From the NCBI RefSeq assembly GCF_003953935.1, contig NZ_RXLQ01000004.1:310001-374000 (forward strand): a stretch of 64,000 nucleotides of DNA, written 5' to 3'. The position numbers and the translations under genes were made by a program. Origin of the DNA: Massilia atriviolacea (GTDB lineage Bacteria; Pseudomonadota; Gammaproteobacteria; Burkholderiales; Burkholderiaceae_D). Positions 40,142 to 58,357 of this stretch are shown here, one piece after another. Each line of letters starts with the position of its first letter. Within the stretch, counting starts at the first letter, position 1. The notes under the pieces were generated by a model. The model worked only from the letters and a program-made list of their open reading frames with translations, ran no database searches and was not told the DNA's origin.

Positions 40142-41475
40142 GCGGCGGGCGCCAGGGGGCGCAGCAGCAGCCGCGCTTCCAGCCCGCCCTCCGGACGATT
40201 GTGCAGGGTCAGGCCGCCGCCCAGCGTGAGCGCCAGCTGGCGCGCGATGGCCAGACCCAGGCCGGTGCCGCCGGTATCGCGGTTGCGCGAGCCCTCCAGG
40301 CGGTAGAAAGGTTCGAACACCTGCTCCAGCGCCGCCTCCGGAATGCCCGGCCCCTTGTCCAGCACCCGGATCGTGACGCCGCCGTCGGCCGCGCGCGCCA
40401 TCTCGATGTGCGCCTGGCCCGCGTACTTCAGGGCGTTGTCGACCAGGTTGGTCACGACGCGGCGCAGGGCGCCCGGACGCGTGACCAGCGGCGCGCCGCC
40501 CTGGCTGTCGAAGGCCACGTCGGCGCCGCTGTCGCGGTAGTCGAGCGCCATGGCGTCGAGCAGGCCGCCGGGATCGATCGCGCGCGCCGGCTCCAGCTGG
40601 CCGTGCATGGCGCGCGCATAGCCGATCCCCTGGCGCGCCAGGTCTTCCAGATGGCGCAGGTCGTCGGTCAGGCGTTGCTGCTGCGGCGATTCGTCCATCA
40701 GGTCGAGGCGCAGGCGCATGCGCGTGATCGGCGTCTGCAAATCGTGCGAGATGGCCGCCAGGATGCGCAGCCGTTCGTCGACATAGGCGGCGATCCGCTG
40801 CTGCATGGCGTTGAAGGCGCGCGCGGCCGCCACCACTTCCGACGGGCCCTGTTCGGGCATGCGCACCGGGCGCAGGTCGGGCCCGAGCGCGTCGGCGGCG
40901 TCGGCCAGGGTGCGCAGGGGTCTGATGGCGAGGCGCACCGCCAGCCAGCAGGCCAGCGCCAGCAGGGCCAGCTGCCCCGCCAGCATGTAGGGCAGGCGCT
41001 CCGACAGCGGCAGCCCGCGCCGCGGGCGGAAGTCGACCGTCAGCGGCTGCCCGTCGGCCAGCCGCAGGTGCACCTGGAAGCGTTCGACAGGGCCGTCGAC
41101 CGCGTGCGCGCTGAAGGCATGGCCGGGCGTGAGCGCGCGCGCGACCGAGGCCAGCAGGCGCATCGAGTGCGGCGCGCTGAGCGCCGGCCCGGCCTGGCCG
41201 GCGGCCAGCGCAAAGCGGTAGCCGCCGCGTTCGAGGCGCGGCAGCCAGGCCGCCCGTTCCTCATGCGGCAAGCGGTCCAGCAGGGCGACGGCGGTGCGCA
41301 GGTCGACTTCGACGTAATCGATCATCGCGCCCATGTTCACGTCGTTGCGTTCTTCGATGGCCAGCGTGGCCGACAGGAACTGGGCCGCGGCCAGTCCCGC
41401 CAGCAGAATCAGGGACAGGCGCGCGAACAGGCTGGCCGGCGCCAGGGTGCGCAGGACCGTGGCGATGCGTTTCAC
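40120..41475 (-). CDS. two-component sensor histidine kinase
   Basis: A 451-aa inner-membrane kinase. Membrane helices at about 14-36 and 165-185 flank a periplasmic sensor of about 130 residues, then HAMP (about 185-240), HisKA with the phospho-His in AAISHDLQTPITR and the ATPase domain with N box (VVTNLVDNALKYA), G1 (DKGPGIPE) and G2 (GGTGLGLAIA). The start is GTG at 41475, overlapping the regulator stop in GTGA, so translation is coupled. The signal is unknown; the divergent or convergent cupin and thioredoxin genes are possible targets. Confidence 0.92.
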   Translation of the reverse strand: MKRIATVLRTLAPASLFARLSLILLAGLAAAQFLSATLAIEERNDVNMGAMIDYVEVDLRTAVALLDRLPHEERAAWLPRLERGGYRFALAAGQAGPALSAPHSMRLLASVARALTPGHAFSAHAVDGPVERFQVHLRLADGQPLTVDFRPRRGLPLSERLPYMLAGQLALLALACWLAVRLAIRPLRTLADAADALGPDLRPVRMPEQGPSEVVAAARAFNAMQQRIAAYVDERLRILAAISHDLQTPITRMRLRLDLMDESPQQQRLTDDLRHLEDLARQGIGYARAMHGQLEPARAIDPGGLLDAMALDYRDSGADVAFDSQGGAPLVTRPGALRRVVTNLVDNALKYAGQAHIEMARAADGGVTIRVLDKGPGIPEAALEQVFEPFYRLEGSRNRDTGGTGLGLAIARQLALTLGGGLTLHNRPEGGLEARLLLRPLAPAAQLKVNA

Positions 41476-42212
41476 GCCGCGCCGGCCAGTGGCGTGACGG
41501 GGCAGGACAGCACATACCCTTCGCTGCGCAGCGTCTTGATATAGCGCGGCTCGCGCGGGTCGTCGCGCAGGCGCTGGCGCAGGCGGCTGACCAGGATGTC
41601 GATCGAGCGGTCGAAGGCCTGCGCATCGTGGCCATGGGTCAGTTCCAGCAATTGATCGCGGGTCAGCACGCGCTGCGGATGGTCGAGGAAGACCCGCAGC
41701 AGCCGGTATTCGGCGCTGCTGAGCGCGACCGCGACATCGTCCTCGGCCAGCAGGTGGCGCCCCACCACGTCGAGCCGCCACGCGCCGAAGCCGATCAGGG
41801 ACGCCGTTTCGCTCGCCTGCATATTCGGCGGCAGCATGCGCGTGCGGCGCAGCACGGCGCGGATGCGCGCCAGCAGCTCGCGCGCCGCGAACGGCTTGGA
41901 CATGTAGTCGTCGGCGCCCAGCTCCAGGCCGACCACGCGGTCGGTCTCATCGTCGCGCGCGGTGAGCATCAGGATCGGAACGGCGCGCTGCTTGCCGGAG
42001 CGGATCTCGCGGCACAGGGCCAGCCCGTCGTCGCCGGGCAGCATGAGGTCGAGCACGATGACGTCCGGCGTGGCCCGTTGCAGGGCCGAGCGCATCGCCC
42101 GGCCGTCTGCCACCGCGGTGCAGCTCAGCCCCTGTTTTTCGAGGTAGGCCGCGACCAGCTCACGAATGTCGCGGTCGTCATCCACGATCAGTACATGATC
42201 GATCTCTGCCAC
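41472..42212 (-). CDS. OmpR-family response regulator
   Basis: A 246-aa regulator. The receiver domain carries Asp pair DDD near 10-12, phospho-Asp in VIVLDLMLPGDDG (about 54) and Lys in MSKPFAARELL. The winged-helix DNA-binding domain follows (VALSSAEYRLLRVFLDHPQR, FDRSIDILVSRLRQRLRDDP). The start is a GTG at 42212 with GAGGAG upstream; an upstream ATG frame has no ribosome site. Operon with the kinase gene. Confidence 0.92.
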   Translation of the reverse strand: MAEIDHVLIVDDDRDIRELVAAYLEKQGLSCTAVADGRAMRSALQRATPDVIVLDLMLPGDDGLALCREIRSGKQRAVPILMLTARDDETDRVVGLELGADDYMSKPFAARELLARIRAVLRRTRMLPPNMQASETASLIGFGAWRLDVVGRHLLAEDDVAVALSSAEYRLLRVFLDHPQRVLTRDQLLELTHGHDAQAFDRSIDILVSRLRQRLRDDPREPRYIKTLRSEGYVLSCPVTPLAGAA

Positions 42213-42401
42213 GGTAAATCTCCTCTGCTGACGGTGGACAGGGCAAACCTTGCCCCAAAAACAACTCATTGATTTAGCTTAGCAGAAACTTTCTAAGCCA
42301 GCCGGATTGTCCATGACTATGGATAGTAATGGCAAGAAACGCGTATGTTGTTCGTGGTTCGATTCCAATATGATGAATCCCGCCATTCATCCACTGCCTA
42401 A

Positions 42402-43929: not shown

Positions 43930-45390
43930 TCATGACACTTTCCCGGCCATGCGCCCGCGCAGATAACGGCGCAGCGCTTCGCTCGGGGTCTTGAGCGCGG
44001 CCGCGCAGCGTCCGGCGTCGCCGCCATGGGCCGCCAGCGCCGCGTCGATCTCGGCCGGCGCAATCTGGCCGATCTGGCGGATCGCCGGATGCGCCTCCAT
44101 CAGCTTGTACATCGAGGGACGCGACACGCCCAGCGCCAGCGCCGCATTGCGGATCAGCCAACCGTTCGCCTCCAGCGCGTCGAGCACCGCCTGCGCGCCC
44201 AGTTTTCCCGGCCGGGTGCGCGCCGGCCGGCCCGCCACGCCCGGCACCAGCGTCCCGAAGTCGGGCGCCTCGCCGGCCTGCGCGACGCTCAGGGCGCGCT
44301 GCACCACGCTGCCGAGCTGGCGCACATTGCCGGGCCAGTCGTAGACGCACAACTGGCTGATGAAGGCGAGCGGCAGCTCCGGCGCGCCGCCGGTGCGCGC
44401 GCTCCAGGCCTGCATGAAGTGCAGCGCCAGCACGCCGATATCGCAGCGCCGCGCGCGCAGGGGCGGCAGCTGCACCACCAGCGCTTCCAGGCGGCGCAGC
44501 AAGGCCTGGTTGAAGCTGGCGTCGTGCAGGTCGTCGTCGCTGGCGCCGATCAGGCGCGCCCGCGCCGCCTCCTTGGTGCGCGCGCCGGGCGGGCGGTACT
44601 CGCGCGTTTGCAGCACGCGACGCAGCATGGCCTGCACCGGCTGCGGCGCCTTGCCGATCTTGTCGAGGAAGACGCTGCCCTCGCCCGCCTGCGCGAAGGC
44701 GCCGGTGCCGGCGCCGAACAGCTCGGCCTCGGCCAGCGACGCGCCGACGGTCGCCATGTTCACCGTCACCATCGGCTCGCGGCAGCGCGCGCTGGCCTGG
44801 TGGATCGCGCGCGCGGCCAGTTCCTTGCCGCTGCCGGCTTCACCGAGCAGCAGCACCGGCAGGTCGGTCGCGGCCACCTGCCGGATCAGTTCACGCACAC
44901 GTATCGCCGCCGCGCTCACCCCGCGCACGGAAGCGATCGCGCTGTCCTGCGGCAGGCGGTCCATCCAGTGCACGCACAGCAGCACCACGCCGCCCAGGCC
45001 GATCACCAGGCCGGCGTCCACCTGTTCCGGCGTGCAGCGCGTCTCCGGCGCGGCCAGCATGGCGCCGTTCAGTTCCACCCGCATGCGGCTTTGCGGCAGC
45101 AGCAGGCTGACGCCATCGTCGCGATGGCGGCGCAGGCGCAGCGAATCGCGCGCGACACGGCGCTGGTCGAGCGGCGCGCAGCGGCCGCCGGGGGCGCCGA
45201 ACAGGGGCGCGAAGCGGTTCACGTCGATGTCGGCGCTGCGCGCGGTAGCGATGTACTGCTCGCCGATGCGCCGCGCATCCGGATGCCACAGGATGGTCAG
45301 CGCCAGCATCTGCGTGGCGCGCCCGGCCGGCACGGGCACCGGCGAAGCCAGCGTGTTTTCGGCATCGAGCAGGGAAAACGGCGCCTGCAT
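43930..45390 (-). CDS. degenerate sigma-54-type regulator with FHA-like N-terminus, last gene of kdp operon
   Basis: A 486-aa protein. Residues 30-145 look like an FHA-type phospho-binding fold. The AAA core follows with Walker A GEAGSGKE (183-190). The sigma-54 contact loop GAFTGA is lost (the region reads ELFGAGTGAFAQAGEGS), and Walker B reads FLDKIG, with Lys in place of the catalytic Glu. It is therefore unlikely to hydrolyse ATP or open sigma-54 promoters. The C-terminus has a Fis-type helix-turn-helix (AALALGVSRPSMYKLME) plus a second similar segment. It starts one base after the kdpE stop codon. Confidence 0.82.
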   Translation of the reverse strand: MQAPFSLLDAENTLASPVPVPAGRATQMLALTILWHPDARRIGEQYIATARSADIDVNRFAPLFGAPGGRCAPLDQRRVARDSLRLRRHRDDGVSLLLPQSRMRVELNGAMLAAPETRCTPEQVDAGLVIGLGGVVLLCVHWMDRLPQDSAIASVRGVSAAAIRVRELIRQVAATDLPVLLLGEAGSGKELAARAIHQASARCREPMVTVNMATVGASLAEAELFGAGTGAFAQAGEGSVFLDKIGKAPQPVQAMLRRVLQTREYRPPGARTKEAARARLIGASDDDLHDASFNQALLRRLEALVVQLPPLRARRCDIGVLALHFMQAWSARTGGAPELPLAFISQLCVYDWPGNVRQLGSVVQRALSVAQAGEAPDFGTLVPGVAGRPARTRPGKLGAQAVLDALEANGWLIRNAALALGVSRPSMYKLMEAHPAIRQIGQIAPAEIDAALAAHGGDAGRCAAALKTPSEALRRYLRGRMAGKVS

Positions 45391-45391
45391 G

Positions 45392-46082
<691 letters not shown>

Positions 46083-46090
<8 letters not shown>

Positions 46091-48785
46091 CGGGCAAATC
46101 GAGGCTTTCTGGTTCTGGGCCGGGCGGCGGGGTCCCGAGCGGCAAGGTAATGACAAGCGAAGCGCCGCCGGTCGGCGACGCGCCAGCCTCGATTTTACCG
46201 CCATGCGCCTCGATGATCGCGCGGCAGATCGCCAGCCCCAGTCCCACGCCCGGTTTGGCCGACTCGCGCTCGCCGCGCGCGAACTTCTCGAACAGGGTAT
46301 CGGCGCGGCCTGCGGGAAAGCCCGGTCCATCGTCGCTCACGCTCAATCTGAGCGAGCTACCCAGGCGCGTACCCGCGATCACGATGGTCGACGCCGGCGG
46401 CGTGTACTTGGCGGCGTTCTCCAGCAGGTTGTACAGGACGCGCTCGATCAGTACCGCGTCGAAGCGCACCAGCGGCAGGCCGGGCGCCAGCTCGGTGCGC
46501 ACCGCATGCCCGCGCAAGGGCGCGGCGCAGGCCCGCAAGGCGCTGCCGACCACTTCTTCGAGCGGCTGCCACTGCATGTTGAAGGTGATCTGGCCGCTCT
46601 GGATGCGCGCCATCTCCAGCAGGTTGGCGACCAGGGCGCTCATGCGCAGCGCCTCGTCGTGCAGGATGCCGGCCATCTCGCGCTGGGGCGCGGCCAGCGC
46701 GGGGCTGGAGGACGCCAGCGATTCGGACAGGCCCACCAGCAGCGTGAGGGGCGTGCGCAGGTCGTGCGAGAGCGCCGCCAGCAGGGAATTGCGCAGGCGT
46801 TCGGACTCCATGTCGACCAGCGCATCCTGCGCCACCTCGATGTAATGCACCCGTTCGAGCGCGATGGCGGCCAGCGCGGCGAAGGTGTCGAGCTGCTTGC
46901 GCTGCTCGGGGATCAGGATCCAGCGCTGCTGTTCGGGTGCGATGGCCAGCACGCCGCGGGTGCGCATGGGCGCCACCAGCGGCAGGTAGAACAGGGCGCT
47001 GGCCGGCAGGGTGCCGGTGCCCAGGCCCGCGCTCTGCGCATGGTCGAAAGCCCATTGGGCCACGCCCAGGTCGGCGCTGGCGCCTGGCGGCGCCTGCAGG
47101 CGGCCGTCGGCGTCGGGCACCAGCAGGGTGGCGCTGGCGCGGAAGGTGCGGGCGATGGCGTCGCGCGTGGTGTCGACGATCTGCTCGGTCTGGAGCGCGC
47201 CGGAGAGCTCGCGCGCGAATTCGTACAGGGCGCGCGAGCGGCGCTCGCGGTGCGCCGCCACGCGCGCCTGGAAGCGCAGGCCGGCGGTCAGGTGGCCGGT
47301 GATCAGGCCTACCGCCAGCATGACCACGAAGGTGATCAGGTATTCCAGGTCCGAGACGGCGAAGTCGAAGCGCGGCGTGACGAAGAAAAAATCAAAGCAG
47401 GCCACCGACAGGCAGGTGCACAGCACCGACGGCCCGCGTCCGAAGCGCACCGCCACCAGCAGCACCACCAGCAGGAACAGCATGGCGATGTTGGCCAGGT
47501 CGACGTAGCCGACCAGCGGCGAGAGCAGCAGCGCGGCGGCCAGGCTGGCCGCGCCCGACCAGGCGTAGGCCTGGGCGCGCCGCTTGCCGCTGTCGATCGC
47601 CAGGGTGACGGTGTTGGCGCCGGCGGCGGGCGCGGCTTCGCGCGGCTTGGCGCCGCCGACTTCGATCAGGTCGATGTCCGGCGCCAGGCCGGCGATGCGT
47701 GCCCGGTGCGGCCGGCGCCACGGCCATGACGAATGCGCGCGCGCCAGCACCAGTTTCGACACATTGTGGTCGCGCGCGTAGTCGACGATGGCGTCGGCGA
47801 TGTCGCGCCCGGCCAGCACCGCCGTGCTCGCGCCAAGTTCCTGCGCCAGGCGCAAGGTGGTCAGGGTCAGTTCGCGCCGCGGCGCCGGCATGCGCTGCAG
47901 GGCCGGGGTTTCGACATACACCGCGTGCCAGTCGGCGCCCAGCTGGCCGGCCAGGCGCGCGGTGCTGCGCACCACGTGCTCGGCGTCCGCGCGCGGCCCC
48001 ACGCAGGCCAGCAGCGCGCCGCCGGTCTTCCAGACGGTGTCGATCGATTGCTCGATGCGGTAGGCGCGCACGTCGTCTTCGACGCGGTCGGCGGTGCGGC
48101 GCAGGGCCAGTTCGCGCAGCGCGATCAGGTTCCCTTTGCGGAAAAAGTTTTTGGCGGCGCGTTCGGCCTGTTCCGGCCGATATACCTTGCCGCTGCGCAG
48201 GCGCGCCAGCAGTTCGTCGGCCGGCAGGTCGACCAGCACCACTTCGTCGGCGCCGTCGAACACGGTGTCGGGCACGGTTTCGGCCACGCGCACGCCGGTG
48301 ATGCCGCCGACCACGTCGTTCAGGCTGTCCAGGTGCTGCACGTTGACGGTGGTGAAAACGTCGATGCCGGCCGCCAGCAGCTCCTCCACGTCCTGCCAGC
48401 GCTTGGGGTGGCGCGAGCCGGGGGCGTTGGAGTGGGCCAGTTCGTCGACCAGGATCAGCGCCGGGGCGGCGGCCAGGGCGGAATCGAGGTCGAATTCCTG
48501 CAGCGTCTTGCCGCGATGGGACAGGGTGCCCGGCGCGAGGCGGCGCAGGCCGTCGAGCAGGGCGGCGGTGTCGGCGCGGCCGTGGGTTTCGAGCACGCCG
48601 ACCAGCACGTCGACGCCGTCGGCCTGCAGCTTGCGCGCGGCGGCCAGCATGGCACAGGTCTTGCCGACGCCGGCCGAGGCGCCGAAGTAGATGCGCAGCT
48701 TGCCGCGCGCGGCCTTGCGTTCCTCGGTCTGGACCTGGGCCAGCAGGGCGTCGGGGTCGGGGCGTTGGGGATCGGTTGAGGACAT
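46083..48785 (-). CDS. kdpD: potassium sensor histidine kinase KdpD
   Basis: A 900-aa kinase with the standard layout. The cytosolic KdpD domain carries Walker-like GASAGVGKT (about 36-44) and DELAHSNAPGSRHPKRWQDV. A universal-stress-type domain (about 250-370) is followed by four membrane helices (about 400-500), GAF, HisKA (SHDLRTPLTLLVGLSESL) and ATPase (NLLENAAKY, DDGPGFPAG, VGLGLAICRAI) domains. It senses low K+ or high osmolarity and phosphorylates KdpE. The ATG at 48785 has AAGGTGG upstream; the longer frame starting at 48881 is a translated intergenic repeat and was rejected. Confidence 0.95.
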
Positions 48786-48877: not shown

Positions 48878-49450
48878 TCAACGTTCAGCGTCGAGCGCCA
48901 GGTTCAGCGCCAGCACGTTCACGCGCGCCTCGCCGAACACGCCCAGTACCGGCTCGATGGCCGCAGCCTTGATGATCGCCTCGACCCGCTCGCGCGGCAG
49001 CTTGCGCGCGCTCGCCACCCGGCCCGCCTGGTAGCGCGCCGCCGCCAGGCTGATCTCCGGATCGAGCCCGCTGGCCGATGCCGTCACCAGGTCCACCGGC
49101 ACCAAGGCCGTGTTGCCGGGGTCGAGCGCCCGCAGCGCGGCCACCCTGCCCTTGACGGCGTCGACCAGCGCCGGATTGAGCGGCCCCTGGTTCGAGCCCG
49201 AACTGGCGGCCGCATTGTTGGCCATCGGCGCGGTGGCCGATGGCCGGCCCCAAAAATAGCCGGGCGAGGTGAACGACTGTCCGATCAGGCTGGAGCCGAC
49301 CGTCTTGCCGCCCTGCGTGACCAGGCTGCCGCGCACCTTGTCGGGAAAGGCGACATACCCGATCCCGGTCACCGCCAGCGGATAGAGCACGCCCACGGCC
49401 AGGGTCAGGGCGCCGAACAGCATGATGGCGGGGCGAAAAGTGGTTTGCAT
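48878..49450 (-). CDS. kdpC: potassium-transporting ATPase subunit KdpC
   Basis: A 190-aa inner-membrane protein with one N-terminal helix (IMLFGALTLAVGVLYPLAVT) and a periplasmic domain with family motifs (GSSLIGQSFTSPGYFWGRPS, ASGLDPEISLAAARYQAGRV, PVLGVFGEARVNVLALNLAL). It binds ATP or stabilises the KdpFABC pump. Confidence 0.95.
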   Translation of the reverse strand: MQTTFRPAIMLFGALTLAVGVLYPLAVTGIGYVAFPDKVRGSLVTQGGKTVGSSLIGQSFTSPGYFWGRPSATAPMANNAAASSGSNQGPLNPALVDAVKGRVAALRALDPGNTALVPVDLVTASASGLDPEISLAAARYQAGRVASARKLPRERVEAIIKAAAIEPVLGVFGEARVNVLALNLALDAER

Positions 49451-49462
49451 GGGATGTCCTTT

Positions 49463-51562
49463 CTAGACCAGGTGAAGCGCCGACAGCAGCATGTCGATCA
49501 GTTTGATGCCGATGAAGGGCAGCACGATGCCGCCCACACCGTAAATGAAGATATTGCGGCGCAGCAGGGCCGCCGCGCCGATGGCCCGGTAACGCACGCC
49601 CTTGAGCGCCAGCGGAATCAGCACCACGATGATCAGGGCATTGAAGATCACCGCCGACATGATGGCCGAATCGGGACTGGTCAGGCGCATCACGTCCAGG
49701 CTTTTCAGCTGCGGATAGGTGCCGACAAAGGCCGCCGGGATGATGGCGAAGTACTTGGCGATGTCGTTGGCGATCGAGAAGGTGGTGAGCGAGCCGCGCG
49801 TCATCAGCATCTGCTTGCCGATTTCGACGATCTCCAGCAGCTTGGTCGGATTCGAATCCAGGTCGACCATATTGCCCGCTTCCTTGGCGGCCTGGGTGCC
49901 CGAGTTCATGGCCACCGCCACGTCGGCCTGGGCCAGCGCCGGCGCGTCGTTGGTGCCGTCGCCGGTCATCGCCACCAGCCGCCCCTCGGCCTGGTAGCTG
50001 CGAATCAGTTTGAGCTTGTCCTCGGGCGTCGCCTCGGCCAGGAAGTCGTCCACCCCCGCTTCGGCGGCGATCGCGGCGGCGGTCAGCTTGTTGTCGCCGG
50101 TGATCATCACGGTCTTGATGCCCATGCGCCGCAGTTCCGCGAAGCGCTCGCGGATGCCGCCCTTGACGATGTCCTTGAGCTCCACCACGCCCATCACGCG
50201 GCCGTCGTCGACCACCACCAGCGGCGTGCTGCCCCGGCGCGACACATCGTCCACCGTGCGCGCCAGTTCAAGCGGATATGGCATCCCGAGCGCCTCCACG
50301 TGCTTTTTCACCGAATCGGCGGCGCCCTTGCGCACCTGGCGCGCGCCGATATCGACGCCGCTCATGCGCGTGTTGGCGCTGAACGGAATGAAGCTGGCCT
50401 GCAGGCTGGCCATGTCGCGCTCGCGGATATTGAAGCGCTGCTTGGCCAGCACCACGATCGAACGCCCTTCCGGGGTTTCGTCGGCCAGCGAGGCCAGTTG
50501 CGCGACGTCGGCCAGTTCCTGCTCGGCGACGCCGGGCGCCGGAAAGAAGCCGGCGGCCTGGCGGTTGCCGAGGGTGATGGTGCCGGTTTTATCCAGCATC
50601 AGCACGTCGACGTCGCCCGCCGCTTCCACCGCGCGGCCCGAGGTGGCGATGACGTTCGCGCCCATCATGCGGCTCATGCCGGCCACGCCGATCGACGACA
50701 GCAGCGCGCCGATGGTGGTCGGGATCAGGCACACCAGCAGGGCGATCAGCACCGTCACGCCGACCGGCTTGCCGGCGCCGGCGGCCGCCACGCCGAACAG
50801 CGAGAACGGCAGCAGGGTCACTGTGACGACCAGGAACACGATGCTCAGCGCCACCAGCAGGATGGTCAGCGCGATCTCGTTGGGCGTCTTCTGGCGCTTG
50901 GCGCCTTCGACCATCGAGATCATGCGGTCCAAAAAGGTCTCGCCGGGATTGACCGACACGCGCACCACCAGCCAGTCCGACAGCACGCGGGTGCCGCCGG
51001 TGACGGCCGAAAAGTCGCCGCCCGACTCGCGGATGACCGGCGCCGATTCGCCGGTGATGGCGCTTTCGTCGACCGAGGCCACGCCTTCGATCACCTCGCC
51101 GTCGATGGGAATCACATCGCCCGCTTCGACCAGGATGGTATTGCCCTTGCGCAGATCGGCGCCGGGAATCGGCAGCCAGGTGGTGCCGTACTTGGGCGTG
51201 GCCAGCTGCTTGGCGCTGACGGTCTGCTTGAGACCGCGCAGGGACGCGGCCTGCGCCTTGCTGCGACCTTCGGCCAGCGCTTCGGCGAAGTTCGCGAACA
51301 GCACGGTGAACCACAGCCAGATGCTGATCGCCAGGATAAAGCCGCTGTCGGCGTCGCCCTTGCCGGCGACGGCCTGGAAGTACATCAAGGTGGTGAGGAT
51401 GCTGCCGACGTAGACGACGAACATGACGGGGCTGCGCAGTTGCGTGCGCGGTCCCAGCTTCATGACGGCGTCGAGGATGGCCGGCTTGACCAGCGCCGGA
51501 TCGAACAGCGTGAGCGTCTTGCGGGTGGTCGCTGCCGGGGGCAGCGGGAGTGCTTGCGACAT
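49463..51562 (-). CDS. kdpB: potassium-transporting P-type ATPase KdpB
   Basis: A 699-aa P-type ATPase, the energising subunit of KdpFABC. TGES phosphatase loop in [12 protein letters not shown], phosphorylation motif DKTGTIT (about residue 320), nucleotide domain and hinge [14 protein letters not shown] are all intact. Of two adjacent ATGs, 51562 is better spaced from GGAG. The length is normal (about 680-700). Confidence 0.96.
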
Positions 51563-51581
51563 CATATGCTCCGACGTGAAG

Positions 51582-53333
51582 TTATTTGGTATAGAGCTGC
51601 AAATGCTCGACAACGGGACCGAGCGCCAGCGCCGGGACGTAATTGAGCACGCCGACCAGCATCACCACGCCGACCAGCAGGCCGATGAAGACCGGGCCGT
51701 GGGTGGGCATGGTGCCGGCGTTCTCTTTCAGGCGCGGCTTGGCGGCCAGCGCGCCGGCGATCGCCAGCACCGGCACGATCACGGCAAAGCGCCCGAACCA
51801 CATGGCGATGGCCAGCATGGTGTTGTAGAAGGGCGTATTGGCCGACAGGCCCGCGAAAGCGCTGCCGTTGTTGTTGGCGGCCGAACTGAAGGCGTACAGG
51901 ATCTCCGAGAAGCCGTGCGCGCCGGGGTTGGCGATGCCGGCGCGGCCGGCATCGAGCATCACCGCCAGCGCGGTGCCGCCCAGGACCAGCAGCGGGGTGA
52001 CCAGGATGGCGATCGAGGTCATTTTCATTTCGTGGGCCTGGATCTTCTTGCCCAGGTATTCCGGCGTGCGGCCGATCATCAGGCCGGCGATGAAGACCGC
52101 CATGATGGCGAACACCAGCATCCCGTACAGGCCCGAACCGACCCCGCCGAACACCACTTCGCCCAGCTGCATCAGCAGCATCGGCAGCATGCCGCCGATG
52201 GGCGTAAACGAGTCGTGCATGGCGTTGACCGCGCCGCAGGAGGCGGCGGTGGTGACGGCGGCGAACAGCGACGAGGCGGCGATGCCGAAGCGCGCCTCCT
52301 TGCCTTCCATATTGCCGCCCGCCTGCAGGCTGCTTGCGCCCTGGTCCACGCCCAGCGCCGCCAGTTGCGGATGCACGGCCTGTTCGGCATTCATCACCAC
52401 GCCGGCGGCGACCACGAACATCAGGCTCATGGCCCCGAGGATGGCCCAGCCCTGGCGCGTATCGCCGACCATGCGGCCGAAGGCGAAGCACAGCGCGGCG
52501 GGAATCAGGAAGATCGCCAGCATCTGCGCAAAGTTCGACAGCGCGCTCGGGTTCTCGTACGGGTGGGCCGAATTGGCGTTGAAGAAGCCGCCGCCGTTGG
52601 TGCCGATCAGCTTGATGGCTTCCTGCGAGGCGACCGGCCCCATGGCGATGGTCTGGGTGGCGGCGACCTTGGCCTCCGGCGCCGCATACGCCACCGGCTC
52701 GATCAGCTGCACTTCCTGGTAGCTGTTGAAGTTCTGGACCACGCCCTGCCCCATCAGGAACACCGCGAAGACCAGCGACAGCGGCAGCAGCACGTACAGG
52801 GTGGAGCGGGTGAGGTCGGCCCAGAAGTTACCGATCGACGCGGCCGAGCGCGCACTGAAGCCGCGGATCAGCGCAAAGGCGACCGCGATCCCGGTGGCGG
52901 CCGAAAAGAAGTTCTGGCCGCTCAGCGCCACCATCTGGGTCAGGTAGCTCATGGTCTGCTCGCCGCCGTAGCCCTGCCAGTTGGTGTTGGCGACGAAGCT
53001 GACAGCGGTGTTGAACGAGGAATCGGGGCTGACGTTCCCCAGCGCCTGCGGATTGAGCGGCAGGAAAGCTTGCAGGCGCTGCACGCCGTACACGAACAGC
53101 GCGCCGAGGCCGTTGAACACCAGCAGCGCGGTCGCGTACGATTTCCAGCCCATGCCGGTATCCGGCGCCACGCCGCCGGCGCGGTACAACAGCCGCTCGA
53201 GCGGCGCCAGCCAGCCGAAGCCCGGAACGGGGCCGCCCTCGCCGACCCTGGCCAGCAGGCGCCCCAGCGGCCAGGCCAGCGCCAGCAGCACGGCCAGGAA
53301 GGCGCCCAGCAGCGCCATCGATTGCATGCTCAT
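51582..53333 (-). CDS. kdpA: potassium-transporting ATPase channel subunit KdpA
   Basis: A 583-aa membrane protein of the SKT superfamily with about ten helices. Selectivity-filter-like loops are seen ([70 protein letters not shown]). The start at 53333 has GGAGG 8 bases upstream and overlaps the kdpF stop as TGATG. Slightly longer than the E. coli protein. Confidence 0.95.
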
Positions 53334-53419
53334 CACAGGTCCTCCGCGTTCAGCAGCGCATGGAGCAGGTAGGCCAGCAGGCCGGCGGCCACCAGACCGC
53401 CTATGTAAATGGCTTCCAT
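53333..53419 (-). CDS. kdpF: KdpF, small stabilising subunit
   Basis: A 28-aa single-helix membrane peptide, [20 protein letters not shown] followed by ALLNAEDL. Size, the hydrophobic pattern and the LLxALLxxEDL-type ending match KdpF, which stabilises the pump. Its start codon overlaps the stop of the preceding small ORF (TAATG) and its stop overlaps the kdpA start (TGATG), so translation is tightly coupled. Confidence 0.9.
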
Positions 53420-53511
53420 TATTTCTTGTCCCCCAGTGTGGCGCAGCCGGCCGCAAAGGCCCGGCACAGGCCGAAAAAGAGCAGCAGCGCTCCGATGAAA
53501 ATCAGGTCCAT
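53419..53511 (-). CDS. 30-aa membrane peptide at the head of the kdp operon
   Basis: A 30-codon ORF ([20 protein letters not shown] then [10 protein letters not shown]) with GAGG 6 bases before the ATG. Its stop overlaps the kdpF start. It predicts one membrane helix and a short polar tail. Similar tiny ORFs are found before kdpF in other betaproteobacteria as far as I recall. It may be a further pump subunit or a translational leader that sets kdpF output. Confidence 0.7.
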
Positions 53512-53545
53512 ATCAGCCTCGACAGAATTGGTTTTGTTATTGATG

Positions 53546-53610
53546 AGCGTATCGGCAAGCGCCTAAAAACGGTGTAAAGAGTTGCCGCGCAGGTGTAAAC
53601 AAAGCGTAAA
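53546..53610 (-). promoter_or_regulatory. kdp promoter with KdpE-like two-part operator
   Basis: Read in the kdp direction, the half-site TTTACGCTTTGTTTACA is followed by 11 bases, then ACTCTTTACACCGTTTTT. After 13 bases comes TACGCT, a plausible -10. The first half-site matches the T-rich E. coli KdpE operator (TTTATAC then TTTTTTTACAC) at most positions. The leader ORF starts about 34 bases after the -10. Two more copies with the same spacing lie at 55374-55438 and 55462-55526. Confidence 0.75.
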
Positions 53611-53618
53611 CGCCGCCC

Positions 53619-54365
53619 TCAAAAGGTCTTGCTGACGGTCAGTTGCAGCGCGCTCTTGCCGAGGAACTTGCCGTTGGCGGGCGAGGCGTAGGCGGCCTTG
53701 CCGGCGTTGGTGCCGATGGCGGCCAGCGCCACGGTCGCCACGCCGAACTCGCGCGTGACGCCGATCTTGTAGTCGGTGTAGCTGGCGCCGCCGTTGTGGG
53801 CCACGCGCTGGCGTCCCGCGTGCAGGTTGAGCACGAAGCCATTGCCGAGCCCGGGATTGGCGGACAGGTCGAGGTAGCCGCTGTGCTTGCTGTCGACATA
53901 GCCGAACAGATTGGTCAGCGCGTGCGAATACTTGAGGAGCGCCACGCCGTACGCGAGCTGCCCGTAGACCTCGGTGGTGTTGGCGCTGGCAAAGCCCGCC
54001 ACCTGGCCGAGCCGGTTGGAGGGGTAAACATAGGTCAGCACGCCGGCATCGTAGCCGATGCCGCCGGCCAGCTGGCCGCGCCTGCCGCCGTAGATGTCGA
54101 GCTCGGCCTTGCCGCCGCCGCCGGCGTCACTGGTCCACTTGATGGTCGAGGCCCAGGCGCCGGCGTACCAGCCGGACGCTTCGTGGACCAGGTCGGCGCC
54201 GCCCTGCAAGGCCGGCTGGAGGCGGGTTTGCGAGATGCCGCGATAGCGGTAGTCGCTGGTGGCGGCGGCGTTATAACTGAGTTCGATGCCGCTGGACGGC
54301 GTCTCTTGCGCGCTGGCTGCGCCGGCGATACTCATCAGGGATACGGCGAAAATGATGCGCTTCAT
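53619..54365 (-). CDS. TorF-family putative porin
   Basis: A 248-aa outer-membrane protein with a Sec signal peptide (MKRIIFAVSLMSIAGAASA-QE) and a beta-barrel-like sequence of the TIGR02001 family (SDYRYRGISQTRLQPALQGG at about 37-56, ending LQLTVSKTF with a terminal aromatic). It lies 34 bases after the ParA-like gene and ends only 9 bases before the kdp operator. Porins of this family are often next to kdp in Burkholderiales; a role in ion or solute entry is likely but unproven. Confidence 0.87.
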   Translation of the reverse strand: MKRIIFAVSLMSIAGAASAQETPSSGIELSYNAAATSDYRYRGISQTRLQPALQGGADLVHEASGWYAGAWASTIKWTSDAGGGGKAELDIYGGRRGQLAGGIGYDAGVLTYVYPSNRLGQVAGFASANTTEVYGQLAYGVALLKYSHALTNLFGYVDSKHSGYLDLSANPGLGNGFVLNLHAGRQRVAHNGGASYTDYKIGVTREFGVATVALAAIGTNAGKAAYASPANGKFLGKSALQLTVSKTF

Positions 54366-54399
54366 GGTGCTTCTTTCTTGACTGTGGAATGAACTGGGA

Positions 54400-55038
54400 T
54401 CAGTGCGGATAGACTTCGTGGTACAGCGCCTGCATCTCGGCGGCCATGGCCGGGTCGCAGGTGTCGGCATCGCACACGCAGCGGCCCTGGCCGCAGGCAT
54501 GCAGGCATGGGGTATGAATGACGGTGGCGGCCAGCGTGGCCGACATCACGCGCGAGGCATACGCGCGCACCGCCGCCAGCTCGGCGGCATCCGGACCGTC
54601 GGCGCCGCCGACAACGACGAACAGCACGCGCAGCCCGGGATTGAACATGCGCGCGCAGTTCAGGCGCGCGATCAGCTTGTACTGGGTGGCCAGGTCGACC
54701 TGGCCGGGCTGCACCGGCACCAGGACCAGGCGCGCGGCGATCAGGGCCGAGCGGCTGTCGTGGGTGTCGCGCGCCTCGGTACTGATCAGGATATCGTGAT
54801 AGCGCTCGCTCATCTGCGCAAGGTCCTCCGGCAGCGAGCGTCCGCCCAGGGCGCGCGCCGGCACCGGGGGCCGCACCCCGGCCGCGCTGCGCGCGCAGCC
54901 CCACATGAACGAGGGGCGCTGCGGATCGGTGTCGACCAGGCAGACCTTGCGGCCGCTGCGCGCGCGCAGCACCGCCAGGTTATTCGCCAGCACGGTCCTG
55001 CCGGGATCGCCGTGGGGGCAGGCAATGGCGACGATCAT
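54400..55038 (-). CDS. degenerate ParA/MinD-like ATPase with C-terminal cysteine cluster
   Basis: A 212-aa protein with the ParA fold: the P-loop region is CPHGDPGRTVLANNLAVLRA (about 7-26), switch DTDPQ (36-40) and LVPVQPGQVDLATQ. Both P-loop lysines of KGGxGKT are replaced (HGDPGRT), so ATP binding or hydrolysis may be altered. The tail has five close cysteines (178, 182, 187, 189, 194), unlike normal ParA, suggesting metal binding. Its ATG overlaps the stop of the 100-aa gene upstream. No parB or parS is seen, so chromosome partition is unlikely. Confidence 0.78.
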   Translation of the reverse strand: MIVAIACPHGDPGRTVLANNLAVLRARSGRKVCLVDTDPQRPSFMWGCARSAAGVRPPVPARALGGRSLPEDLAQMSERYHDILISTEARDTHDSRSALIAARLVLVPVQPGQVDLATQYKLIARLNCARMFNPGLRVLFVVVGGADGPDAAELAAVRAYASRVMSATLAATVIHTPCLHACGQGRCVCDADTCDPAMAAEMQALYHEVYPH

Positions 55039-55337
55039 GATTGCCCCCGCGCGCCGGTCAGCAGCACCCCGGGCAGCTGCTGGCGCAGCGCGTACGTGAC
55101 AGCTCCCGCGAGCGCGGCATGCACGCACAGCCAGACCTGCATGCGCCCTTCCTGTCGGTCGCGGGCGATGCGCATGAATTCGAGCGCCTCGCCGCACACT
55201 CGCATGGCCAGCCGACGGGCGCCGGTCACCGAAGCGGTGTCGATCGTCAGGTGGATGGTGCAGGTCGGCTGCGCCGCGCTGAAAGGCGCCACGGCATGTT
55301 GGCGCAGGGTCGAACGGGTGGACTGGTGCAATTGCAT
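55035..55337 (-). CDS. 100-aa protein of unknown function
   Basis: A small protein without membrane helix or signal peptide (CTIHLTIDTASVTGARRLAM, RMQVWLCVHAALAGAVTYAL). GGAGG lies 5 bases before the ATG, and the stop overlaps the ParA-like start (ATGA). I recognise no family. The coupling suggests it works together with the ParA-like protein. It is the first gene after the KdpE-like promoter element on the minus strand. Confidence 0.72.
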   Translation of the reverse strand: MQLHQSTRSTLRQHAVAPFSAAQPTCTIHLTIDTASVTGARRLAMRVCGEALEFMRIARDRQEGRMQVWLCVHAALAGAVTYALRQQLPGVLLTGARGQS

Positions 55338-55373
55338 GAAGCCTCCGGAAAACACGTCGGGATGACGGTTCCC

Positions 55374-55438
55374 AGCCTATCGGCCCAGCCGTAAAAACGG
55401 TCTAAAAAGTCCGGGGCCTCCTGTAAACAAAGCATAAA
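55374..55438 (-). promoter_or_regulatory. second KdpE-like promoter element, driving the ParA-like operon
   Basis: In the transcription direction it reads TTTATGCTTTGTTTACA, 11 bases, ACTTTTTAGACCGTTTTT, then 13 bases and TAGGCT. The 46-bp element keeps exactly the spacing of the kdp element. The first half-site is even closer to the E. coli kdp operator. The 100-aa gene starts about 37 bases after the -10-like hexamer. Confidence 0.72.
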
Positions 55439-55461
55439 AACAGGGCGACGCGCAGGCTGCG

Positions 55462-55526
55462 TTTACGCCTTCTTTATGCGTAGCCGGCAATTCTTGATGC
55501 CGTTTTTACACCTCGCTGTGTACGAT
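55462..55526 (+). promoter_or_regulatory. third KdpE-like promoter element, driving the GNAT/RimK operon
   Basis: On the plus strand: TTTACGCCTTCTTTATG, 11 bases, ATTCTTGATGCCGTTTTT, then 13 bases and TACGAT preceded by TGTG (extended -10). Spacing is identical to the other two copies. It is back-to-back with the second element, 23 bases apart, forming a divergent control region. Confidence 0.7.
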
Positions 55527-55569
55527 GAGCTGGTGCCGGAAGCGCCGGTGCCCGAACCAGGAGCGAAGG

Positions 55570-56700
55570 ATGGACATGCAACAAGCCGCTGCGATCCGCC
55601 ATGCGGATATTGACGATCTCGATGCCCTGGTGGCGATCGAAACCGCCAGCTTCAGCGGCGACCGGCTCAGCCGGCGCAGTTTTCGCCATCTGCTCACCGA
55701 AGGCAATTGCCTGACCCTCGTCGCCGGCGCCGGCGCCGCCCTGCGCGGCTACGCCACGGTGCTGTTTCGCGACGGCGTGTCGGTGGCGCGCATCTACACC
55801 ATTGCCACCACTCCCGCGTGGCAGGGCTGCGGGGTGGCGGCGGGCCTGGTACGGGCCGCCGAACAGGCCGCGCTGGCCAGGGGCTGCGTGAGCGTGCGCC
55901 TGGAAATCCGCAAGGACAACGCCGCCTCGCTCGCCCTGTTCGCCAGCCGCGGCTACCAGGTGTTCGGCGAATACCGCGCTTACTACGAGGACGGCATGGC
56001 CGCGTGGCGCCTGCAGAAAGCGCTGCCGCCGCACAGGCGCCCGGCGCGGGCGCGCGCCGCCTACTATCGGCAGACGCTGGGCTTTACCTGCGGCGCCTCG
56101 TGCCTGATGATGGCCATGAAGGCGTTCGAGCCGGGGCTGGAATTGAACCGCACCCTGGAATTGCAGCTGTGGCGCGAAGCGACCACGATCTTCATGACGG
56201 CCGGGCATGGCGGATGCGGCCCCTACGGCCTGGCGCTGGCCGCGCACCGGCGTGGTTTTCCTGCCGAGATCCACGTCAATGGCGGCGGCGTGCTGTTTCG
56301 CGAATCGGTGCGCAGCGAAGAAAAGCGCGAGGTCATCACCCTGGTGCACGAGGACTTCGTGCGCCAGGTGAAGGCCTGCCCGATTCCGGTGCATGCCAAC
56401 CTGGCGGGCACGGCGGAACTGCGCCGCTGTGTCGACGCCGGCGGCGTTGTGCTGGTGCTCATATCAACCTGGCGCCTGACGCGCGAACGGGCGCCGCACT
56501 GGGTGGTGATCAGCGCTTGCGACGCGCAGTATGTGTACATCCACGACCCCGACAACGCCGCCGCGCGCGCGCCCGAGCAGCGCATCGACATGCCGATCCC
56601 GAAAAAAGACTTCGAGCGCATGGCGCGCTACGGCCGCAACGGCGCCAGGGCAGCGGTGGTGGTGTATCCGCGCGGCCACCCGTTGCCTGCAACAGCCTGA
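55570..56700 (+). CDS. GNAT acetyltransferase fused to a C39-like peptidase
   Basis: A 376-aa two-domain protein. Residues 8-150 are a RimI-type GNAT fold with the acetyl-CoA loop near 85-90 (QGCGVA). Residues 165-370 are a C39-like papain-fold peptidase with nucleophile Cys174 in GFTCGASCL, His310 in APHWVVIS and Asp326 in YIHDPD. AGGAG precedes the ATG. It forms a two-gene operon with the RimK-like ligase, a combination described in surveys of ATP-grasp amidoligase systems as a likely peptide-making or protein-tagging module. Confidence 0.87.
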   Translation: MDMQQAAAIRHADIDDLDALVAIETASFSGDRLSRRSFRHLLTEGNCLTLVAGAGAALRGYATVLFRDGVSVARIYTIATTPAWQGCGVAAGLVRAAEQAALARGCVSVRLEIRKDNAASLALFASRGYQVFGEYRAYYEDGMAAWRLQKALPPHRRPARARAAYYRQTLGFTCGASCLMMAMKAFEPGLELNRTLELQLWREATTIFMTAGHGGCGPYGLALAAHRRGFPAEIHVNGGGVLFRESVRSEEKREVITLVHEDFVRQVKACPIPVHANLAGTAELRRCVDAGGVVLVLISTWRLTRERAPHWVVISACDAQYVYIHDPDNAAARAPEQRIDMPIPKKDFERMARYGRNGARAAVVVYPRGHPLPATA

Positions 56701-56728: not shown

Positions 56729-58357
56729 ATGTCCACGCAACGCAGCAATCCCATTCCCAGCCTCCCCCTCGCGCCGGATCACGATTCCCATGCCAACGCC
56801 GCTATCCTCCCCGCGCCATCGCGCAGGCTGTCGACGCTCAAGGCCGGGGCGGGCGCGCTGATCGTGGTCGAACAGCGGCGCGACTGGATCGGCGATGGGG
56901 GCGGCCACACTGTCGTCACGGCGGCCGATTTCCTGCACGGCGGCGATACGCAGCGCGCCAGCGGCACCGTGATCAACCTGTGCCGCGGCTATAAATACCT
57001 GTCGGTCGGCTACTATTGCTCGCTGCTGGCCGAGGCGCGCGGGCAGGCGGTGCTGCCGTCGGTAAAAACCATCAACGATTTATCGCGCAAGGCCATCTAC
57101 GGTCTCGATACAAGCGAACTGAACTACGCACTGAACGCCTTGCTGGAGCAATCGGGCGAGCGGCCGATGCCGGTCGAATTTTCGATGGATATCCGCTTCG
57201 GCACGACCGACTACACGCCGCTGGCGGCGCTGGCGCGGCAGATCTTCGAGACCTTTCCGGCGCCGCTGATGCGGATCGAGTTCGCGCGCGGCGATCACTG
57301 GCGCATCGACGCCATCAAGCTGCACAACGTGAGCAGCCTGGGCGAGAGCCAGCTGGGCGCGGCGGCGGCGGCCCTGCGCGCGATGGGATGCGCGCCGCTG
57401 CCGGCCCGGACCGGCGTCAAGCCGTACCGTTATCACATCGCGATCCTGCACGATCCCGAGGAGGCGCTGGCGCCCAGCAATGCCGGTGCGCTGGCCTGTT
57501 TCGTCGATGCCGGACGGCGGATCGGCGTAGATGTGTCGCTGATCGGCAAACGGGACTTGTCGCGCCTGCCTGAATTCGACGCGCTGCTGATCCGCGAAAC
57601 CACAGCCATCAACCACCACACCTATCTGTTCGCGAAAAAGGCGCAAAGCGAAGGCATGGTCGTGATCGACGATCCGGTCTCGATCCTGCGCTGTACCAAC
57701 AAGGTGTATCTGGCCGACCTGATGCGCATGAACGGCGTGCCGACGCCACGCACCTTTACCCTGCAACGCGCCGACATTGCCGACATCGGCGCCATCGAGG
57801 CGGCCATCGGCTATCCGATGGTGATGAAAATTCCTGACGGCGCGTTTTCGCGCGGGGTGAGCAAAGTGGCCGATGCGGCCCAGTTCCAGCAGACGGCGCA
57901 CGCTTTGCTGGCGCAGTCGGCGCTGATCCTGGTTCAGGAATACATGTACACCGAGTTCGATTGGCGTATTGGCGTGCTGAACCGTAAGGCCATTTTCGCG
58001 AGCAAGTACTTCATGTCCAAGGGACACTGGCAGATCGCCCGGCGCGACGCCGGCGGCAATGCCGAATTCGGCCCGACACGCGGGGTGCCGCTGGCGGATG
58101 TACCGCCGGAGCTGCTGCGCCACGCAGTGGCGGCAGCGAGCCTGATCGGCGACGGTCTGTATGGCGTGGATATGAAGATGAGCGAACGCGGGCCGGTGCT
58201 GATCGAGGTGAACGACAATCCCAACATCGATGCCGGCAATGAGGATGCGGCGCTGGGGGACGCCTTGTACCGGACGGTGCTCGGCGAGATGGTGCGGCGG
58301 CTCGACGAAGCGCATGGGGTAGGTGCCGGGCACGGAGGTGCGCTGTTGTCGAGGTGA
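56729..58357 (+). CDS. RimK-like ATP-grasp ligase with RLAN N-terminal domain
   Basis: A 542-aa enzyme. Residues about 40-190 match the RLAN domain ([40 protein letters not shown]). A RimK-type pre-ATP-grasp and ATP-grasp core follows from about 230 to 520 ([44 protein letters not shown]-like [20 protein letters not shown] with the metal ligands). It should join an amino acid, perhaps glutamate, to a peptide or protein with ATP. Product unknown. Starts 28 bases after the GNAT-peptidase gene. Confidence 0.87.

Follow-up and report, generated by a model that had tools for sequence, protein, structure and literature searches.

Predicted KdpE operators with two tandem boxes at the kdp promoter and at two flanking operons of Massilia atriviolacea

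In this study we analyzed a stretch of 64,000 nucleotides of Massilia atriviolacea (NCBI RefSeq assembly GCF_003953935.1, contig NZ_RXLQ01000004.1, positions 310,001 to 374,000), hereafter the window, whose coordinates are used throughout. The same two-box element lies upstream of three operons: the kdp operon, which encodes the Kdp potassium pump (copy A); an operon of a small open reading frame (ORF), a ParA-like gene and a porin gene (ORF101/ParA/porin, copy B); and an operon of a GNAT-C39 fusion gene and a RimK-like ligase gene (GNAT-C39/RimK, copy C). The three elements are very probably operators of the response regulator KdpE encoded nearby (45392-46090), which would co-activate the three operons in low potassium; both binding and activation are predicted from sequence. 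The copies occupy 53546-53610 (-), 55374-55438 (-) and 55462-55526 (+), and consist of the following parts, some of which were placed with a position weight matrix (PWM):

53594..53610, minus strand: predicted KdpE box 1 of the kdp promoter, TTTACGCTTTGTTTACA (pattern match, alignment)
53562..53578, minus strand: KdpE-type box 2 of the kdp promoter, TTTACACCGTTTTTAGG, 32 base pairs (bp) downstream of box 1, overlapping the -35 position
53546..53551, minus strand: -10-like hexamer TACGCT of the kdp promoter
55422..55438, minus strand: predicted KdpE box 1 of the ORF101/ParA/porin operon, TTTATGCTTTGTTTACA (pattern match)
55390..55406, minus strand: KdpE-type box 2 of the ORF101/ParA/porin operon, TTTAGACCGTTTTTACG (PWM, shift test)
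55374..55379, minus strand: -10-like hexamer TAGGCT of the ORF101/ParA/porin operon
55462..55478, plus strand: predicted KdpE box 1 of the GNAT-C39/RimK operon, TTTACGCCTTCTTTATG (pattern match)
55494..55510, plus strand: KdpE-type box 2 of the GNAT-C39/RimK operon, TTGATGCCGTTTTTACA (PWM, shift test)
55521..55526, plus strand: -10-like hexamer TACGAT of the GNAT-C39/RimK operon

The genes concerned are:

53420..53512, minus strand: membrane-protein-like ORF of 30 amino acids (aa), first gene of the kdp operon, read from the sequence; overlaps the kdpF start (TAATG)
53334..53420, minus strand: 28-aa ORF read from the sequence, which we take to be kdpF
51582..53333, minus strand: kdpA (Pfam KdpA, 799.7 bits)
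49463..51565, minus strand: presumably kdpB, from sequence and position; start estimated
48878..49450, minus strand: presumably kdpC, from sequence and position
46083..48785, minus strand: sensor kinase gene kdpD (Pfam KdpD; NCBIfam KdpD 1106.8 bits, just below the cut-off of 1123); start estimated
45392..46090, minus strand: response regulator gene kdpE (NCBIfam KdpE 354.2 bits, cut-off 325); start estimated
55035..55337, minus strand: ORF101, 100 aa, predicted beta-alpha-beta-beta-alpha-beta fold
54400..55038, minus strand: ParA-like protein with a degraded Walker A motif (GDPGRT)
53619..54365, minus strand: TorF-family (TIGR02001) putative porin (profile searches)
55570..56700, plus strand: GNAT acetyltransferase fused to a peptidase-C39-like domain (DUF3335; domain search, scanned from 55525)
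56729..58357, plus strand: RimK-like ATP-grasp ligase with an RLAN domain (profile searches)

The box 1 word TTTAYGCYTTSTTTAYR has three exact matches in the window, at 53594-53610 (-), 55422-55438 (-) and 55462-55478 (+), and these are its only exact matches in the whole genome (7,355,158 bases). At up to 3 mismatches the window holds 5 matches, compared with a mean of 0.41 over 100 shuffles (largest 3), while over the whole genome with 2 mismatches allowed there were 7 matches versus 9 for the reversed-pattern control. The segment lengths are the same in all three copies: box 1 of 17 bases, a spacer of 11 (N11), a second half of 18, a spacer of 13 (N13) and the -10 hexamer of 6. When box 1 was held fixed, box 2 plus -10 scored 53.6, 24.1 and 20.4 bits at shift 0, whereas any displacement between -8 and +8 made the score negative in each copy. 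The exact matches, the equal lengths and the shift test bear out the first-pass annotation of this DNA, which had claimed three copies with identical spacing. The pairwise identities A-B, A-C and B-C are 16, 13 and 12 of 17 in box 1 and 16, 14 and 13 of 18 in the second half; in the spacers they are 2, 7 and 4 of 11 (N11) and 7, 2 and 5 of 13 (N13). Pooled over all pairs, the spacers are identical at 27 of 72 positions (38%) versus 31% expected from composition, with two single pairs, A-C in N11 and A-B in N13, exceeding the expectation. The boxes hold while the spacers have diverged, as had been claimed.

Box 1 of all three copies is a direct repeat of the TTTA(T/C)A type with 5 bp between the half-sites, which read TTTACG/TTTACA, TTTATG/TTTACA and TTTACG/TTTATG; every copy has G in place of A as base six of its first half-site, and the second half-site of copy C ends in TG. 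Box 1 fits the operator pattern of E. coli KdpE, for which the available portion of PMC3264566 gives TTTATA and TTTACA as half-sites, with a gap of 5 bp. A KdpE-type box also makes up the second half, with two TTTA-like half-sites 11 bp apart; it starts exactly 32 bp past the start of box 1 in all three copies. The two boxes form a direct tandem on one helix face with box 2 covering the place of -35, and by its sequence the second half is best described as a second, weaker KdpE-type box overlying that position. A single 23-bp element of the E. coli type does not describe these copies. The first-pass annotation had proposed a KdpE-like element of two parts; its first half stands as a predicted KdpE operator, but the whole is two KdpE-type boxes in tandem rather than a KdpE site joined to some other part.

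The gene at 45392-46090 is the sole regulator gene in the genome over the KdpE cut-off of 325 (355 bits; next 148.5), among 48 matches at E<=1e-10, many of which are receiver domains only. Its recognition helix, HYLRIYMGHLR, is identical to that of E. coli KdpE (PDB 4kny); it keeps R193 and R200 in this helix, as well as T215 (numbering on this KdpE assigned in this analysis). The three residues come from PMC3264566, the accessible text of which states that replacing each one abolished the E. coli response. The five regulators next by profile score, including the OmpR-like 41472-42269 (L220), have Asp at position 193.

For searches beyond the window, a sequence-only model and a PWM were built from kdp promoters. 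Dropping repeated copies of one genomic place left 23 distinct kdp loci; those of relatives had mostly been gathered by a box 1 pattern search, i.e. were chosen for box 1. Nineteen (the window and 18 others) were aligned, those in which the box 2 consensus at +32 was matched in at least 11 of 16 places, so that box 2, present in all 19 aligned promoters, is the feature for which they were kept; L054, L056, L064 and L087 were left out. The model includes the window's kdp promoter and neither flanking copy, and its E-values are rough. In the genome of M. atriviolacea it matched at E<=1 at kdp (4.6e-19), ORF101 (1.3e-7) and GNAT-C39 (5.7e-4), and no fourth match at that threshold appeared among the 150 of 846 first-look candidates that were scored. 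The PWM gave 93.7 bits for the kdp copy, 51.7 for B and 40.9 for C, and the flanking copies still reached 50.7 and 40.3 bits on a PWM built without the window's kdp copy. The scan of the genome and of relatives that the first-pass annotation had suggested as a check therefore recovered both flanking promoters, as it would members of a KdpE regulon, and at E<=1 no place other than kdp among the scored candidates of the genome itself.

In the reversed-sequence control over 1.03 Mb of window and loci, 3 positions exceeded 10 bits, 2 of them 15 bits, and the upstream regions called for kdpB (33) and kdpD (46) held no PWM score above 10 bits. Gene calls in the fetched loci came from a codon-score script that set some starts too early, so that elements upstream of the porin are undercounted in the per-gene table. 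These controls bear on the idea that the elements are just parts of ordinary sigma-70 promoters, or AT-rich words that arose by chance on a GC-rich background. AT-rich promoter stretches in a GC-rich genome do look alike, and short words recur; however, the occurrence of exact box 1 just three times in 7.36 Mb, together with the sparse reversed control and the empty kdpB and kdpD regions, makes this origin extremely improbable.

Among 17 genomes of the genus, the model gave 35 matches at E<=0.01, of which 11 lie before kdp, 9 before the TorF porin, 5 before ORF101/ParA, 5 before GNAT-C39 and 5 elsewhere. Of the last five, one precedes a KimA-like importer gene (L080; KimA PDB 6s3k, E 3.8e-56) and one a Band_7 gene with Kup next in line (L083; Pfam K_trans, 626 bits). 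Two precede a 79-aa ORF that is paired with a Band_7-like lipoprotein (L081 and L210; the L210 pair was likened to that of L081 by eye). The fifth (L082) precedes an unread gene at the end of its contig, where KdpD- and KdpE-like genes lie alongside; the 967 bases from the element, itself included, to that end gave no match to a KimA-like gene. The kdpA gene is present in 12 of the 17 genomes, and the kdp promoter is among the matches in 11 of those 12; that of G011 has an E-value of 0.03. The five kdpA-less genomes, four complete and the fifth 48% complete, have no match at E<=0.01, and the four complete ones (G001, G006, G010 and G012) have none even at E<=1.

The divergent cluster of GNAT-C39-RimK and ORF101-ParA lies on another contig than kdp in G003 and G008, and ~32 kb and ~57 kb away from kdp in G016 and G009, respectively. 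Both promoters of the cluster carry the element in all four, so that it is kept upstream of the same genes at orthologous promoters; a lack of such conservation, which the first-pass annotation had named as a refutation, was not what we observed. In G003, G009 and G016 a separate element belongs to the porin that lies directly upstream of kdp; in G008 an element lies 420 bp upstream of the porin, and the ParA-like gene is interrupted. Compared with the window, and with gaps counted as differences, the four relatives are 90.6% identical at the half-site positions (40 columns), 58% in the rest of the element region (117 columns) and 38% in the flanks (75 columns). This pattern is hard to reconcile with a recent duplication of the kdp promoter whose copies regulate nothing and have simply not had time to decay. 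Such an event would suit the presence of three copies within 2 kb, the single difference in 17 bases between box 1 of A and B, and the two spacer pairs above expectation (7/11 and 7/13), but the spacers overall are near expectation while the boxes and spacings hold, and with the orthologous promoters considered as well we regard duplication as very improbable. The first-pass claim that function keeps the copies alike is supported by this comparison. As a separate observation, L072, L075, L076 and L077 have next to the porin-kdp genes a gene for GNAT alone (~155 aa, 61-63% identity to the GNAT part), at the place of the window's GNAT-C39-RimK, as if one had replaced the other.

The search was then widened, with stricter filters, to 392 genomes of the family. 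A match at E<=0.01 was found in 220 and kdpA in 270: 214 genomes have both, 6 the match only, 56 kdpA only and 116 neither. Training on kdp promoters makes the association partly circular, and the kdpA-negative rows are the informative ones; 116 of these 122 genomes have no match. In the kdpA-less G040 the element stands directly before an operon of KdpD-like, KdpE and Kup genes (L229). G447 has five elements within 16 kb, ahead of KdpC-like plus GNAT-C39 plus RimK, ORF101-porin, kdp, a small ORF plus Kup (L177), and a 98-aa ORF; DapA-like genes and ORFs of ~60 aa have an element upstream in other genomes. The GNAT-C39 search matched 18 genomes, 9 with both domains (one in two pieces), and 7 of these 9 have an Infernal match upstream at E<=0.01, either directly (the window, G003, G008, G009 and G016) or via one intervening gene (G447 and G198). 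The first-pass notion of a local regulon wider than the pump is supported in that the flanking promoters are found by a kdp model, but the regulon is not merely local, given the unlinked copies and the other targets in relatives.

GNAT-C39 is widespread in Gammaproteobacteria, with at least 561 relatives confirmed. Of the best 80 of these, the element scored above 8 bits in five loci, titled Massilia (2), Rugamonas, Oxalobacteraceae and Herbaspirillum, the Herbaspirillum one being weak (10.9 bits); the reversed control gave 0 of 80. The remaining 75 loci had no score above 8 bits anywhere in the locus, L301 having <300 bp of upstream sequence, and we abandoned a general control of GNAT-C39 genes by KdpE as a reading. 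Since only five loci with Oxalobacteraceae titles among the best 80 carry the element, KdpE control of GNAT-C39 looks like a lineage-specific recruitment within this family. The kdp promoter of E. coli K-12, on the other hand, combines box 1 with TTTGCGAAATCTTTGC at +32 and with TACCCT in the position of the -10, and scores 43.5 bits on the PWM. Its second box is degraded (L216:1823-2134, the kdp upstream region) at the same 32-bp step and -10 distance; in random sequence of the same composition, 2.9e-4 of positions reach the score of box 2 to -10, as do 3 of the 6924 positions in the locus. It is suggestive, from this one E. coli promoter, that the two-box layout of kdp may be older than the recruitment of GNAT-C39.

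It is conceivable that another OmpR/PhoB-family regulator with a similar operator runs the flanking operons, only the kdp copy belonging to KdpE. OmpR/PhoB regulators often bind direct repeats of an 11-bp-type period, the genome has the 48 KdpE-profile matches described above, and some relatives hold KdpE-like genes apart from the kdp operon (G014, L082; G011, L080; G232, L184). Against this stand the Asp at 193 in the five nearest paralogues, the single regulator over the KdpE cut-off, the complete kdpA-less genus genomes without the element, and the fact that some targets in relatives are potassium importers. We consider this arrangement quite improbable.

Several observations weigh against KdpE control of all three operons. 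The two-box layout is partly selected for by the choice of training promoters, because a box 1 search gathered the loci and only 19 of 23 were kept. Copies B and C score lower than kdp on the PWM and may be weaker sites, and the half-sites of copy C depart from the canonical form (TTTATG, TTGAT). In the ORF101 copy of G008 the boxes are one base further apart (69 bases on 68 model positions; 16.5 bits), and the GNAT-C39 promoters of G420 (16.1 bits) and G353 (10.9 bits) are weak on the PWM, with no Infernal match at E<=0.1. In the family, 56 of the 270 kdpA genomes have no match at E<=0.01. Among kdpA-less genomes, G296 and G046 have KdpE, KdpD and KimA-like genes nearby, but their element is not placed directly before these in the proper orientation; in G258 Kup is next to a KdpD-like gene, with no KdpE called and no element above 5 bits on the PWM; and G084 and G221 have a match with nothing relevant at the locus. 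For E. coli K-12, the part of PMC7657598 at hand calls kdpFABC the sole KdpE target before adding adeP, uxaA and uxaC, and for Sinorhizobium fredii an excerpt of PMC9239096 has KdpE binding kdpFABC and neither kup nor trkA.

The gene neighborhood adds some detail. The porin follows ParA after 34 bp in the window and ends 8 bp ahead of the kdp element. The 450 bp before the porin hold no element (best score -32), and the gene would be transcribed from the ORF101 promoter; transcripts from that promoter may also extend into kdp. The GNAT gene probably starts at 55570 instead of at the ATG overlapping the -10. The intergenic region 55338-55569 had no match to plasmid records at E 1e-5. The small ORF (55035-55337) is 100 aa long, the length given in the first-pass annotation. 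ORF101 belongs to no known family in domain and profile searches; its predicted structure is a ferredoxin-like fold (mean predicted local distance difference test score, pLDDT, 80), and the model had no match in the PDB at E<=0.001, its general ferredoxin-like resemblance including PII-like and ACT-type proteins among the best matches. ParA-like homologues of genus g40 (L180, L185 and L191) retain GGxGKT, and those of G009 (L073) and G341 (L203) do not.

Other observations concern the kdp genes and their regulators. A 30-aa-like ORF precedes kdpF in 19 of the 23 kdp loci by script filter. Directly after kdpE lies a sigma-54-activator-like gene (43930-45390, -), which is found beside kdpE in six relatives at 79-87% identity. 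It has ELFGAGTGAFAQ where we would expect the GAFTGA loop; similar text occurs in three of the matched relatives, and such a word was not found in the other three. In L229, L230, L231 and L080, KdpE genes with KdpD-like kinases stand beside Kup or KimA-like genes, and in L082 a KdpE gene and a KdpD-like kinase stand alone in the stretch; four of these five kinases lack the N-terminal sensor part by alignment range. A stand-alone KdpC-like protein in G447 (L177:4188-4823, +; Pfam KdpC profile positions 59-181) lies behind its own element and precedes GNAT-C39 and RimK.

Taken over from E. coli KdpE, the binding, the activation and the low-potassium signal would fit together as follows. When potassium is short, KdpD would phosphorylate KdpE, and KdpE-phosphate dimers would occupy both boxes, two dimers per element, 32 bp (about three helical turns) apart. 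With the promoter-proximal box over -35 and the -10-like hexamer at a fixed distance, sigma-70 polymerase would be recruited, and the Kdp pump, the ORF101-ParA-TorF porin operon and the GNAT-C39/RimK operon would be switched on together. KdpE could instead bind the flanking promoters as a repressor or without effect. Loss of KdpD/KdpE in Staphylococcus aureus changed the transcription of >100 genes, according to the sections of PMC3610689 available, so that sites need not all activate, and weaker sites can be decoys; yet the -10 distance of the flanking copies equals that of the kdp copy, KdpE activates E. coli kdp, and the geometry is kept in relatives. Repression or mere occupancy is accordingly judged improbable.

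Under co-activation by KdpE, potassium shortage probably controls more than the pump alone, and an extended KdpE regulon with a double-box operator is predicted. The flanking genes would have a part in the low-potassium state: the porin could let potassium through the outer membrane, and the combination of GNAT, C39-like and RLAN-ligase domains suggests that the cell makes an acylated peptide-like compound, which at a guess is a solute standing in for potassium. A much broader picture, which we consider unlikely, is that KdpE of Oxalobacteraceae runs a dedicated potassium-starvation program through a rigid double-box operator. The program would comprise importers (Kdp, Kup and KimA), a porin, an ACT/PII-like small protein with a ParA-like partner, and a recruited GNAT-C39/RLAN-ligase pathway, whose product, an acylated peptide-like solute, would take over from potassium the role of osmolyte or counter-ion. 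In this picture kdp promoters would in general have the double box, and that of E. coli would be a worn-down case. Very few targets are known in E. coli for KdpE, a textbook regulator, and here genome comparison yields a testable potassium regulon. It would place ORF101, the TorF porin, the ParA-like protein and GNAT-C39/RimK in potassium or osmotic physiology, and its structural prediction of two KdpE dimers three turns apart, the second at -35, is testable also in E. coli K-12.

Among the open-licence papers listed in a literature search, we found none that describes a kdp operator of two boxes, this regulon, or KdpE targets in Oxalobacteraceae. Among known systems, the synthetase pathway of the osmolyte N-acetylglutaminylglutamine (TIGR03103) likewise combines an acetyltransferase domain with an ATP-grasp ligase and has a tie to osmotic stress. 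The ligase here is of the RLAN type, however, a C39-like peptidase domain is present, and the GNAT part matches TIGR03103 weakly (19.6 bits versus a cut-off of 569). The Pho box is a further parallel: PhoB activates from the -35 position, where direct repeats of the OmpR-family type replace -35. The elements described here share the direct repeats in place of -35 and the fixed distance to -10, but would belong to another regulator, with half-site TTTA(T/C)A (PMC3264566, in part) rather than TGTCA(T/C).

Control beyond the pump is shared with S. aureus, where many promoters are bound directly by KdpE and the named extra targets include surface-protein and capsule genes; targets beyond kdp are reported for pathogenic E. 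coli as well, as far as the consulted part of PMC3610689 extends. The targets here are instead a porin, a ParA-like protein and a predicted acetyltransferase/ligase pair, under one rigid two-box layout. In S. fredii, too, KdpE activates kdpFABC (PMC9239096, from an extract), but unlike in that species, where kup and trkA were not bound, some elements in relatives of M. atriviolacea precede kup (L177; Band_7 plus kup in L083; KdpD-KdpE-Kup in L229) and a KimA-like gene (L080). In Mycobacterium smegmatis, a partial text of PMC5401905 describes one 22-bp motif unlike that of E. coli. For E. coli itself, one 23-bp KdpE element at -72 to -50 is described in the portion of PMC3264566 noted above. 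The E. coli kdpFABC operator has nearly the same box 1 half-sites and 11-bp period, an identical recognition helix in its regulator, and, on the kdp model, the same 32-bp step and -10 place, but its second box is degraded, whereas the elements reported here have a second, better kept box that overlaps -35.

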